A stretch of DNA of 64,000 nt. Source: Kiloniellales bacterium. GTDB taxonomy: Bacteria; Pseudomonadota; Alphaproteobacteria; Kiloniellales; JAKSBE01. How positions within the stretch are numbered: the first letter of the stretch is position 1; each line of letters opens with the position of its first letter. The notes beneath the pieces were generated by a model. That model was not told the origin of the DNA. It was given only the letters and a program-made list of their open reading frames with translations, and made no database searches. Positions 18 through 7,732 of the stretch are shown piece after piece. Location of the stretch: NCBI GenBank assembly GCA_030066685.1, contig JASJBF010000013.1, positions 1 to 64,000 of the forward strand, read 5' to 3'. A program made the translations under genes and the position numbers.

Positions 18-49
18 CCGGTGGGTGGCGCCCTTCCGCCACCCACCGG
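18..49. terminator. Strong hairpin at the left edge
   Basis: A perfect 13-bp inverted repeat (18-30 with 37-49) flanks a 6-nt loop. It lies about 60 bp before the first gene and is probably a terminator of a gene left of the window. Neither side has a clear T-run, so this could also be a structured leader. Confidence 0.5.
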
Positions 50-112: not shown

Positions 113-466
113 ATGAGCGATAGGTTTGGAGTGTCGTTGGGTCTGGGCATTGGGATCGCCGCCGTCGTCTTGGCGGTCGTTCCGGTCCAGGCCTTCGACG
201 ACCAGGATCCGGGATGGAAAGCCCTTTCCCCGGCGGAGCTCGAGGCCCAAAGAGCAAAGGGCCCTGACGAGCTGCTCGTGGGCCCGCTCACGATCCAGGA
301 CAACACGATTCAGGCCGACGGCTCGATGGGCCTGAACACGATCGACAATTCTGCGTTCAGCGGCGCGATGGGCATGTTCAACGTGCTGCAGAACAACGGG
401 CACGGCGCCATCCTGAGCAACGCAGTCGCCGTTGAGATCACGATGAACCCCGGGCCGGCGCCTTGA
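113..466 (+). CDS. Small exported protein with an Asn/Gln motif, candidate secreted subunit
   Basis: This 117-residue protein has a signal peptide (hydrophobic core about 8-25, likely cleavage after VQA-27). The mature part carries ELEAQRAKG (42-50), related to LDDLRGGF and LEESRGEG in two neighbours, and an Asn/Gln-rich segment (87-103, GMFNVLQNNGHGAILSN). Ten of those 17 positions are identical in the protein at 1265-1783. The ATG at 113 follows a GGAAG-type ribosome binding site. The C39 peptidase begins 62 bp downstream. I do not recognise a named family. Context suggests a substrate or subunit of the downstream peptidase/barrel system, possibly amyloid-like, since curli and Fap subunits also carry regularly spaced Gln, Asn and Gly. 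That role is inference. Confidence 0.7.
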   Translation: MSDRFGVSLGLGIGIAAVVLAVVPVQAFDDQDPGWKALSPAELEAQRAKGPDELLVGPLTIQDNTIQADGSMGLNTIDNSAFSGAMGMFNVLQNNGHGAILSNAVAVEITMNPGPAP

Positions 467-528
467 GGCTCCCTCCCGCCTTCGGTCGGAGATCCGCACA
501 GGCGCAGACGGGCCCAGCGAGCTTGGAC

Positions 529-1239
529 ATGAAGTCGAGCAGAGCTTTCCTCTACACCTTGGTCGCCGTGGCTCTTTGTACTGCTCTGGTCCCGGGCTCT
601 GGGGCAAAGGCCGGTTCCGTTTCCATCGAATCGACCGGCGGCAGCTTCAACGTCAAGGTCGCGAGCGTGCGCGAGGCCCGTTTCAAGAATGTCGTCAAGC
701 AGCAGTACGACTTCAGCTGCGGTGCGGCGGCGGTCGCCACGGTGATGACCTATCACTACGAGCGGCCGATCGAGGAGGCCGAGGTGTTCTCCGCCATGTT
801 CGAGGCCGGGGACAAGGAGAAGATTCAGCAGGTGGGCTTCTCACTTCTGGACATGAAGAACTACCTGGAAACCCAGGGCTACCGCGCCAACGGCTACGAG
901 GTTCCGCTCGACAAGCTGGTCGAGGCGCAGATCCCGGGGATCGCGTTGATCAACACCAGGGGCTATATGCATTTCGTCGTCGTCAAGGGCGTGACGGCGG
1001 ATCACGTGCTGGTGGCGGATCCGGCCATGGGGAACCGTGTCTATCCCCGCGAGGACTTCGAGGCGATGTGGAACGGCATCGTTTTCGTGATCCTCGACGA
1101 CGACGAGATCGCAGCCGCGCACTTCAACCAAGAGCGCGACTGGCGGGTGCGGGCCAAGCCGCCGGTGGACCTGGTTCGGCGGATGCGTGACGAAAGCGGC
1201 TACTTCTCCCTGACCTTGCCGAGGCAGAATTATTTTTGA
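529..1239 (+). CDS. Exported stand-alone C39-family cysteine peptidase (FapD-like)
   Basis: The 236-residue protein has a signal peptide (about 1-28) and one papain-like C39 domain. The expected catalytic set is visible: Gln59, Cys64 in YDFSCGAAA, His148 in GYMHFVVV and Asp164 in VADPAMG. C39 enzymes cut after double-glycine leaders and are usually fused to ABC exporters; this one has no transmembrane or ATPase domain and should act in the periplasm. FapD of the Pseudomonas Fap amyloid system has the same stand-alone form. The frame is open back to 463, but the ATG at 529 gives a proper signal peptide, so I use it. Neighbouring exported proteins with LE/D-x-x-R-G-like motifs are plausible substrates. 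Confidence 0.85.
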   Translation: MKSSRAFLYTLVAVALCTALVPGSGAKAGSVSIESTGGSFNVKVASVREARFKNVVKQQYDFSCGAAAVATVMTYHYERPIEEAEVFSAMFEAGDKEKIQQVGFSLLDMKNYLETQGYRANGYEVPLDKLVEAQIPGIALINTRGYMHFVVVKGVTADHVLVADPAMGNRVYPREDFEAMWNGIVFVILDDDEIAAAHFNQERDWRVRAKPPVDLVRRMRDESGYFSLTLPRQNYF

Positions 1240-1264
1240 GATTTGGCAGCCAGAGGTTCGCAAA

Positions 1265-1783
1265 ATGGTTAGACCTCGTAATCGCAGAAGAGTTCTTTCG
1301 GCTGTTTGCTTTGCCTTGGTCTCCAGCGTGCTGGCGACGAGCGCTTGGGCCGAGGCCGGCACCGAGAGAGTCGGCCCACCCGTGTCGCTCCTTCCTCCGG
1401 CGTTCTTTGGGGGCGCCTTGCCCGTCCCCGATAATCGGCTCGATGACCTGCGAGGGGGCTTCAGGTTCGCCAGCGGTCTCGAAGTCCACTTCGGGCTCGC
1501 GTTCAGGACTCAGTTCAACAACGAAACGCCGGTCATCACCACCTTCACCGAGGCCGATTTGATGAACCATAGCGGGGTCATCAACAGGGTGGTCGACCGG
1601 ACCGTCACGGTGGAGCTCACCAATGCCGCAAGCGGCCTGATGAACGTGATCCAGAACAACCTGGACGGCGCATCGATCTCAAACATGGCGACCCTGTCGA
1701 TCGATCTCTACAATGTCACCCAAGCGGCCCGGACCATGAACATGGGTCGCTCGTTCGATGCAAGGTCGCTGCTTGGGTACTAG
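1265..1783 (+). CDS. Exported protein with double-glycine-like motif and Asn/Gln motif
   Basis: The 172-residue protein has a signal peptide (likely cleavage after AWA-29). A segment LPVPDNRLDDLRGGF (52-66) looks like a double-glycine processing site, with Gly64-Gly65. The distal part has beta-prone sequence and a segment (124-140, GLMNVIQNNLDGASISN) matching the protein at 113-466. The ATG at 1265 is preceded by an AGAGG ribosome binding site about 8 nt away, and the gene starts 25 bp after the C39 peptidase. No named family was recognised. It is the best candidate in the cluster for a precursor cut by the C39 enzyme, which is an inference from motif and position. Confidence 0.7.
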   Translation: MVRPRNRRRVLSAVCFALVSSVLATSAWAEAGTERVGPPVSLLPPAFFGGALPVPDNRLDDLRGGFRFASGLEVHFGLAFRTQFNNETPVITTFTEADLMNHSGVINRVVDRTVTVELTNAASGLMNVIQNNLDGASISNMATLSIDLYNVTQAARTMNMGRSFDARSLLGY

Positions 1784-1791
1784 CATGCTCG

Positions 1792-1810
1792 GCAAGTGAA
1801 ACCCACTTGC
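1792..1810 (+). other. Short intergenic hairpin
   Basis: A perfect 7-bp inverted repeat (GCAAGTG/CACTTGC) with a 5-nt loop lies between the genes ending at 1783 and starting at 1861. There is no T-run. It may attenuate transcription or stabilise mRNA inside the operon. Confidence 0.35.
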
Positions 1811-1860
1811 TTCACGCGACAAGGGGGAAGGTCAAACCCGACGCTGAGGTGAAAAGCCCG

Positions 1861-2214
1861 ATGTCTTACCGGCGAACACAGCAAAGAATGGCTGCGGGTC
1901 TTCTGTGGCCAAGTGTTTTTGTCTGCCTGATCGCTACGATCGTATCACTCGTGGGAGGAAGGCTGGCGCTGGCCGAGGAACCCCTTCGTGTGGCGGCCGC
2001 TAAGACCTCCGCGGTTTTCGACATGCCGCCGGTGACGGCCCGAGAACTGGAAGAGTCCCGGGGCGAGGGTCTCGAAGGCTCTAACGCCGGCAACATGGAT
2101 ACGGCCGTCATTCTCTGGGACGAAGTAAGATCCGGGCGACGGACGGGCGTCTCATCTCAAAGTCAGGGCACGAGCACGAACGTGCACAGCACGGTGTCCG
2201 GACAGCTCTTCTGA
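1861..2214 (+). CDS. Small exported protein with LEESRGEG motif
   Basis: The 117-residue protein has a long signal peptide (hydrophobic 14-33, likely cleavage after ALA-38). The segment PPVTARELEESRGEG (56-70) aligns with the double-glycine-like motif of the 1265-1783 protein. The rest is Ser/Thr/Gly-rich and of low complexity, and lacks the Asn/Gln segment of the other two. A GAGGTGA ribosome binding site sits 8 nt before the ATG at 1861; an upstream TTG at 1807 would add an unlikely extension. It is last in the + strand group. The function is unknown; it may be another C39 substrate. Confidence 0.6.
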   Translation: MSYRRTQQRMAAGLLWPSVFVCLIATIVSLVGGRLALAEEPLRVAAAKTSAVFDMPPVTARELEESRGEGLEGSNAGNMDTAVILWDEVRSGRRTGVSSQSQGTSTNVHSTVSGQLF

Positions 2215-6763: not shown

Positions 6764-7003
6764 ATGACGAGCATAAAGGTACCCGGTTCCGAGGTGCGCC
6801 TTGACCCGGACAAAATCACACGTATCGAGATCTCAGCAAAGAACAGCCCGAATGCGTTCCTCAAGATATCACTTCGAGGCCGGGCAGGCTCCACGGTCGT
6901 GATGTTCGCCAGCAGAAAGGAGGCAATTGAGTTCTACGAAGCTATCTGGAAACAAAGGCACTCAAGTGCAGAGCAGATCGTCAAGGTCGGTGAGTTTGGC
7001 TAG
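6764..7003 (+). CDS. Small hypothetical protein, possible PH-like fold
   Basis: The 79-residue protein has alternating charged and hydrophobic strands, including a conserved-looking stretch ITRIEISAKNSPNAFLKISL, and ends in a helix rich in Glu, Tyr and Trp. There is no signal peptide or membrane segment. The pattern suggests a small beta-sandwich closed by a helix, as in bacterial PH-like proteins, but I do not recognise a named family. Its 3' end overlaps the convergent FNR-type regulator gene by 42 bp. The upstream stretch is AT-rich and promoter-like. Codon and residue patterns favour a real gene. Confidence 0.55.
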   Translation: MTSIKVPGSEVRLDPDKITRIEISAKNSPNAFLKISLRGRAGSTVVMFASRKEAIEFYEAIWKQRHSSAEQIVKVGEFG

Positions 7004-7732
7004 GCCTTCGAAGTCGAGAATCCTGAGCCGGCCGCGCCTAAATAGAAGCAGCTCTTGCTCCCTGAGCTGCTTCAGCGTTTGACTAACGTAGACGCTGGTC
7101 AAACCCAACGCTTCGGCGATGTGGTGTTGGGTCAAGGGGATCTCGACCTCCCGGTCGCCGACCGCAGGGCCTGGGGGACGAAGGCGCAAGCTCAATTCGA
7201 GCAGCAGGTGGCAAATTTTGCCACTGGCGGTGCGGGACCCGACATTCGTCAAGTGATCACGCGCGATGGCAACGTCCTGCGCGATCATCCGAACCAGTCG
7301 GGCCGACAGACACGGGTTCTTCTCGACCAGCTCGCTGAACTGCTGGCGGGGGAAGACACACACCGCCACGTCGGTGACGCATTCCGCGCCATGGAGCATT
7401 GGCGCAAGCAATTGAGCCTGATAGCCGAGGAAAGAGCCCGGTAAGCAGAAATCGAGAATCTGGCGACGTCCAGATTCGGTGATTCGGTACAGGCTCACCC
7501 AGCCGTCTAGCAGATTAAAGAGCTCTGTGCAGATTTCGCCCGGGCGATAGAGGTGACTGCCCGCGGGGAGAACGCAATCCCCCTGCTTAAACCGCTCGAC
7601 GATCTCCAGACGGTCGCCCTCGAGAGGCTGACAAATGGTCTTTGTCCTGATGTGACATTCCTGGCAACCCACCGGAACCGCAGGTGGGCGGATTCTCCGC
7701 TGTGCCACGACCCCCCCAATTTGGATAATCAA
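6962..7732 (-). CDS. Crp/Fnr-family transcriptional regulator
   Basis: The protein has an N-terminal Cys cluster (Cys23, Cys26, Cys34 in CQECHIRTKTIC), a cyclic-nucleotide-binding-type beta-roll (about 45-150), and a Crp-type winged helix (LTQHHIAEALGLTSVYVSQ, recognition helix near 205-225). The Cys cluster resembles the FNR iron-sulfur ligand region, and further cysteines lie in the beta-roll (Cys96, Cys118, Cys125), so oxygen or redox sensing is plausible. The start is TTG at 7732; GTG at 7708 behind a G-rich stretch is an alternative. The likely target is unknown, although the small convergent gene may be related in function. Confidence 0.8.
   Translation of the reverse strand: MIIQIGGVVAQRRIRPPAVPVGCQECHIRTKTICQPLEGDRLEIVERFKQGDCVLPAGSHLYRPGEICTELFNLLDGWVSLYRITESGRRQILDFCLPGSFLGYQAQLLAPMLHGAECVTDVAVCVFPRQQFSELVEKNPCLSARLVRMIAQDVAIARDHLTNVGSRTASGKICHLLLELSLRLRPPGPAVGDREVEIPLTQHHIAEALGLTSVYVSQTLKQLREQELLLFRRGRLRILDFEGLAKLTDLDDLLCT

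Follow-up and report, generated by a model that had tools for sequence, protein, structure and literature searches.

A C39-leader-like motif conserved in small exported proteins beside a FapD-like periplasmic peptidase in a Fap-type locus

Three small exported proteins (P0001, P0003 and P0004) encoded beside a FapD-like periplasmic C39 cysteine peptidase (P0002) have one motif in common, and this motif is real, conserved and tied to the peptidase. The genes lie at the start of the window, i.e., the whole stretch of 64,000 nucleotides that was analyzed, from a Kiloniellales bacterium. The motif was kept in both neighbors of fapD in well over a hundred related operons, the Pseudomonas Fap operon included, and, judged from its sequence, it is very probably the recognition element of FapD. 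The two-step maturation itself was already proposed, since the periplasmic C39 peptidase of Fap systems is known to be essential for secretion (PMC5557850). What is new here is the motif, its wide spread and the predicted cut site. The motif was not described in the open-access literature searched, and it might have been reported elsewhere.

The four genes P0001 (113–466), P0002 (529–1239), P0003 (1265–1783) and P0004 (1861–2214) were found on the forward strand, and P0005 (2651–4423) and P0006 (4522–5724) on the reverse strand. P0001 was an exported protein of 117 aa, with a signal peptide (residues 1–27), a C39-type leader and a single Fap-like repeat at its C-terminus (FNVLQNNGHGAILSNAVAVEI). 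P0003 was an exported FapE-like protein with a signal peptide (1–29), a variable linker, the leader motif, a beta-rich domain and an end resembling a Fap repeat. P0004, a small exported protein of the 'VILWDE' family, had a signal peptide (1–38) followed by the leader motif. The signal peptides of the window ORFs were called by a crude in-house rule, not by SignalP. P0005 was a FapF-like outer-membrane barrel with a coiled coil and an N-terminal, peptidoglycan-binding SPOR domain (NCBIfam FapF, E 8e-49; Pfam SPOR, E 8e-13; Phenol_MetA_deg, E 2e-10). The SPOR domain was found in none of the 10 FapF relatives scanned. Judged by the FapD, FilB, C39, FapF and SPOR profile matches together with the C39 fold, the locus is a divergent Fap-type operon for functional-amyloid export, not an ABC-type bacteriocin locus. 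It was named Fap-like because its FapD and FapF scores fell under the curated cut-offs.

P0006 was a sigma-54-dependent activator (Pfam Sigma54_activat, E 3e-69) and is a probable regulator of the cluster. A relative of it was present in 29 loci of our first set, which comprised 58 loci taken from 58 relatives and 398 genomes of the phylum. In addition, a Crp/Fnr-like regulator was recognized by eye at 6962–7732, downstream of the cluster as the sigma-54 activator is; it is a possible cluster regulator too. A perfect 12-bp hairpin (18–49, forward strand) was located 5' of P0001, with a z of −3.8 for bases 1–112. It was located alike in the same-genus locus L021 (3306–3418), with one compensatory T-A to C-G change.

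The contig of the window begins at base 1, and no fapA, fapB or fapC of the Pseudomonas type was in view. In L021 (genome G001), a 1089-aa ORF starting at the contig edge (36–3305) contained 16 units of about 69 aa each. Its unit was SFNN..GV.TVQQNNGD.N, and its gene lay directly 5' of the hairpin and the small first gene. According to the literature, FapB and FapC nearly always have exactly three repeats. The search of the window's own genome gave no match to the 16-repeat protein, perhaps owing to the contig break at this point. The same genome possessed a second FapD-like locus on another contig (C30, L020), with a FapE-like protein carrying LTDEEMSEMRGG/L (here and below, the slash marks the predicted bond) and several exported D/V-rich proteins. 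In another locus (L082), the cassette of repeat protein, small gene, fapD and fapE was duplicated in tandem.

The peptidase P0002 was best matched by the NCBIfam model FapD (E 6e-51), followed by FilB (E 1e-33), and it also matched Pfam PF03412 (E 2e-23). Its score against FapD (NF058616) was 172.8 bits, and the curated cut-off of 330 bits was not reached. By these scores P0002 is a FapD relative, not an equivalog. The preliminary description had placed a periplasmic C39 peptidase next to the small proteins, and this was borne out: P0002 (236 aa) had a Sec signal peptide, no fused ABC transporter and an intact catalytic set (Q58, C64, H148 and D164). These four residues were invariant columns in the peptidase alignment A1, and the catalytic Gln, Cys, His and Asp were present in all 59 peptidases compared, so the FapD-like peptidase looks active from its sequence. 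The best fold matches of its AlphaFold model (pLDDT 86) were the C39 domains of PCAT1, ComA and LahT. A standalone C39 gene occurred in 57 of the 58 first-set loci. Furthermore, as P0002 lies near P0005, a FapF-like gene was found near the C39 gene in 55/57 first-set loci and in 69/76 loci of a second set, several of the exceptions being short contigs. In one locus (L102), whose stretch contained no FapF-like gene, a standalone exported C39 peptidase was neighbored by an exported protein with IDTSEMDEVRGR/F. Peptidase columns separating GG-leader from GR/GK-leader groups were few (e.g., Y60/T and H76/A) and were confounded by ancestry.

The motifs of the three window proteins could be aligned at one spacing: LSPAELEAQRAK/G in P0001 (residues 38–49; 224–259, forward strand), VPDNRLDDLRGG/F in P0003 (residues 54–65; 1424–1459, forward strand) and VTARELEESRGE/G in P0004 (residues 58–69; 2032–2067, forward strand). 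The residues before the bond are numbered −12 to −1. On this alignment, cleavage likely occurs after −1, with predicted cuts at K49/G50, G65/F66 and E69/G70, respectively. The motif began 10–24 residues into the mature part in all three proteins. A hydrophobic residue at −12, L−7, R−3 and G or A at −2 were common to them. P0001 and P0004 carried E−8 in addition, whereas P0003 had V−12 and L−7 but R at −8. Thus, the earlier observation that the exported ORFs at 113, 1265 and 1861 share a motif after signal-peptide-like N-termini was confirmed. Its description as double-glycine-like was right as to the C39-leader spacing, but the residues at −2 and −1 were GG in P0003 only, with AK in P0001 and GE in P0004.

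The training set of a 12-position matrix consisted solely of FapE-slot motifs from other loci, the FapE slot being the gene after the peptidase. This matrix picked exactly these windows, with shuffle p values of 1e-4 to 2e-4 for P0001, 5e-5 for P0003 and 0.0017 to 0.002 for P0004 (Fisher combined p, 7e-9). Among the 48 signal-peptide-like ORFs of the 64-kb window, the three proteins ranked first to third; the top three scores were 20.8, 15.7 and 12.0, and the fourth was only 4.8.

The FapE slot was read in 38 loci, and the motif x-[LMIVF]-x-x-x-[RHT]-G-[GRKT]-[FLYM] was present in 38/38 of the proteins, including P0003 and the true Pseudomonas FapE. Where the search pattern set no constraint, −12 was L, V or I in 35/38 and −8 was E in 22/38. 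Among the choices the pattern allowed, −3 was R in 36/38 and −1 was G in 23, R in 8, K in 6 and T in 1; −2 was G in 38/38. In alignment A2 of this family (449 columns, 15–27% identity to P0003), the only invariant columns were Met1 and the motif Gly, and Arg−3 reached at least 90%. The preliminary description had named homologues lacking the motif as evidence against its idea; the motif proved to be the best-conserved block of the FapE-slot family and was kept in the upstream family. P0003 lies directly 3' of P0002 and aligned with Pseudomonas FapE in A2. The A2 profile, of which P0003 is itself a row, found both proteins. The NCBIfam model FapE matched 15 of the 38 members, and P0003 was not among them. 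All convincing FapE-profile matches in the 398 genomes fell in genomes with FapD; one match in a FapD-less genome (G303, E 9e-4) was an unrelated gene.

With the same matrix, 23 of the 24 upstream-slot proteins of other loci had p < 0.05, and 12% of the other exported proteins of the first-set loci were positive, the strongest being a duplicate fapE. The second set of 76 loci was obtained by a different route and scored with the unchanged matrix. It included Halomonas, Lysobacter, Cupriavidus, Methylobacter, Acidithiobacillus, Magnetospirillum, Geotalea and a Nitrospira MAG. The motif rate was 94% downstream (n = 68), 90% upstream (n = 70) and 6% in controls (n = 49), and these rates are descriptive, not independent trials, because the loci are related by descent to one another and to the training set. 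In the window (1861–2214) and in five other loci (L027, L034, L073, L125 and L148), a family of small exported proteins was observed whose members combine a leader-like block with a conserved [VIL]LWDE. No NCBIfam model fitted the six of them scanned, and P0004 had no Pfam match. A link between P0004 and FapA was considered and had no NCBIfam support.

In the FapE-slot family, the linker from the signal peptide to the motif varied from 7 to 50 residues, and conservation peaked at the motif. The conserved domain began at +1 with F, Y or L. In a weak model of P0003 (pLDDT 67), the motif formed a short helix that directly preceded the first strand, and the fold search with this model gave no match at E ≤ 0.001. 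The upstream family and FapE had only a C-terminal segment in common (hhalign 97%, 29 columns), which resembled one unit of the L021 16-repeat protein. P0001 therefore looks like a leader plus one Fap repeat, and we infer from this likeness that it may be a FapB-like mini-subunit.

The likeness of the motif to C39 leaders was also studied. The consensus of such leaders is L−12, E−8 and L−7 ahead of a double Gly, and in the LahT complex V−4, L−7 and L−12 occupy hydrophobic pockets (PMC6363468). When aligned, the motif has the same spacing as this published consensus. A bacteriocin-leader matrix was built from 14 leaders drawn from general knowledge. With this matrix, the FapE motif was the top-scoring window of its protein in 18/38 members, a figure unaffected by the choice of windows, and it fell within the best 5% in 97%, a figure that was helped by that choice. 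For the window proteins singly, the p values were 0.047 for P0001 and 0.097 for P0003, both peaking elsewhere, and 0.81 for P0004, at the right place. Hence the resemblance to the classic leader suggested earlier holds at the family level but not for the single window proteins with this matrix. The departures from the classic leader were a near-fixed Arg−3 and a relaxed −1.

Taken as a whole, we consider it probable that the FapD-like peptidase has the three small Sec-exported proteins as its clients, docking the leader and then cutting after −1. P0001, P0003 and P0004 would be exported by Sec and cut by signal peptidase. The leader (hydrophobic −12, E−8, L−7, often a hydrophobic −4, R−3, G/A−2 and a variable −1) would then dock in the C39 groove, forming a short helix. 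A second, periplasmic cut after −1 would yield mature proteins starting at F66 (P0003), G50 (P0001) and G70 (P0004). After maturation, the FapE-like protein and the mini-subunit might leave through the FapF-like barrel, and they might start, cap or anchor the fiber. What we infer for this system is the docking and the cut, together with the precise bond and the function of the cleaved proteins. The two-step maturation suggested in the preliminary description was thus supported in part, by the conservation of the motif, its spacing and the peptidase; the Fap-type nature of the system had been missed.

Several findings speak against cleavage at this bond. The −1 residue varies over G, R, K, T, E or M. 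Known C39 enzymes require Gly-Gly, Gly-Ala or Gly-Ser; either the S1 pocket is therefore different or cleavage occurs at another site. The near-invariant R−3 is foreign to the classic leader, and FapA of the Pseudomonas type, with a canonical-looking leader (LSDSDFAGVTSG), was reported as unprocessed by MS. The main rival reading, which we regard as unlikely, is that the C39 domain or the FapF coiled coil binds the motif, as a docking or secretion signal, with no cut at that point; the real cut would lie elsewhere, e.g., in FapF or further along FapE. The variable −1 would suit it, and so would the gap in the MS coverage of FapE of Pseudomonas sp. UK4, which is about 70 residues compared with about 40 predicted by the motif. 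Moreover, catalytically dead C39-like domains act as substrate chaperones, and the FapF linker has been suggested as a cleavage site (both in PMC5557850). However, the catalytic residues were intact in 59/59 peptidases and are required in Pseudomonas, where C38A abolishes the secretion of FapC (PMC5557850). The boundary of the motif was sharp, with an aromatic residue or Leu at +1 in FapE, and G−2 was invariant, as a narrow S2 pocket would demand.

It is very improbable that the motif is unrelated to the peptidase, as a mere structural cap ahead of the beta domain or a trace of common ancestry. The C-terminal segment common to the FapE-slot and upstream-slot proteins suggests that the two families may be distant paralogues. 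However, the profile match is restricted to the C-terminus and leaves the motif outside; the motif greatly exceeds the remainder in conservation, stands at a variable distance from the signal peptide and occurs in the WDE family too, and FapE is found only with FapD. It is still harder to believe that a microcin- or bacteriocin-like peptide system, and not an amyloid system, is encoded here. In the Neisseria Nap island (NapP, NapF), GG peptides do occur together with a FapF homologue and a C39 peptidase, and the latter enzyme is proposed to cut them (PMC11798529). Against this, the P0003 family includes the FapE matches mentioned above, P0001 has a single Fap-like repeat, and the same-genus locus encodes the VQQNNG protein of 16 repeats just upstream.

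Cleavage by the FapD-like peptidase remains our preferred reading, and the motif would fill a gap in the knowledge of Fap systems. Since 2017, Fap amyloid secretion has been known to require FapD, but the target and recognition sequence of this peptidase are unproven. As the block occupies one position both in FapE and in the gene that flanks fapD on its other side, exact bonds can be tested. The motif also suggests additional FapD clients, unnamed in the open-access literature searched. The chances are about even that all FapD/FilB-type systems mature Sec-exported accessory proteins (FapE, single-repeat mini-subunits, WDE/FapA-like proteins and FilA) through a degenerate double-glycine leader, with Arg−3 as a new mark of specificity. 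If so, Sec and a periplasmic C39 peptidase would form a general two-step pathway licensing amyloid export, with the major fiber subunits uncut.

Among the closest known systems is the Pseudomonas Fap operon (fapABCDEF), which likewise has a periplasmic C39 peptidase beside FapE and a FapF barrel. The motif is also present in the true Pseudomonas FapE, one example being LKDAEMAELRGR/Y. The window locus differs in scoring under the NCBIfam FapD and FapF cut-offs, in having FapF, with its SPOR domain, encoded on the opposite strand, and in an extra single-repeat protein ahead of fapD. In a previous study, FapE was the sole Fap protein without N-terminal peptides by MS, the Fap proteins were said to have no canonical C39 sequences, and the target of FapD was called unclear (PMC5557850); FapE is the suspected target in published work. 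In addition, a review of December 2025 stated that FapD is 'thought to process' FapE and FapF (PMC12822426). Fiber-like and other exported proteins of the loci mostly had no motif, in agreement with the finding that FapB and FapC were unprocessed by MS (PMC5557850). Fap-type FapA proteins (L071, L074 and L106) showed an even more canonical leader (LSDSDFAGVTSG and LGDADFARVSGG). The FapE-slot matrix was mostly non-significant on FapA-slot proteins, because R−3 is absent; the bacteriocin-leader matrix found LSDSDFAGVTSG-like blocks in several of them (p 0.0005 to 0.033). FapA is not claimed as a client, since no processing of it was seen by MS in UK4 (PMC5557850).

The Fil system (FilB, FilC) also combines a periplasmic C39 peptidase with a FapF-like barrel, and FilB was more distant from P0002 than FapD was. 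Its upstream exported protein carries L/M-DDxxLxxVTGQ just after the signal peptide; it is a different client, with T−3 and Q−1 in place of R−3 and G−1. In four FilB-type loci (L096, L097, L099 and L100), a leader-like block (MDDSSLSSVTGQ) stood four residues past the signal peptide of this protein. FilA was examined as a client: the block was rightly placed in five FilA-like loci, and p < 0.05 was reached in only two of the six tested. In the Nap island, the clients are small cationic peptides tied to autolysis, and FapE and amyloid repeats go unmentioned in the excerpted text (PMC11798529). The C39 domains of PCAT/AMS proteins (LahT, ComA and PCAT1) have the same fold, catalytic set and leader spacing (−12/−8/−7/−4/−2). 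In contrast to them, the window peptidase has no ABC transporter and would act in the periplasm on Sec-exported proteins, and the motif of the window type has a near-invariant R−3 and a relaxed −1.
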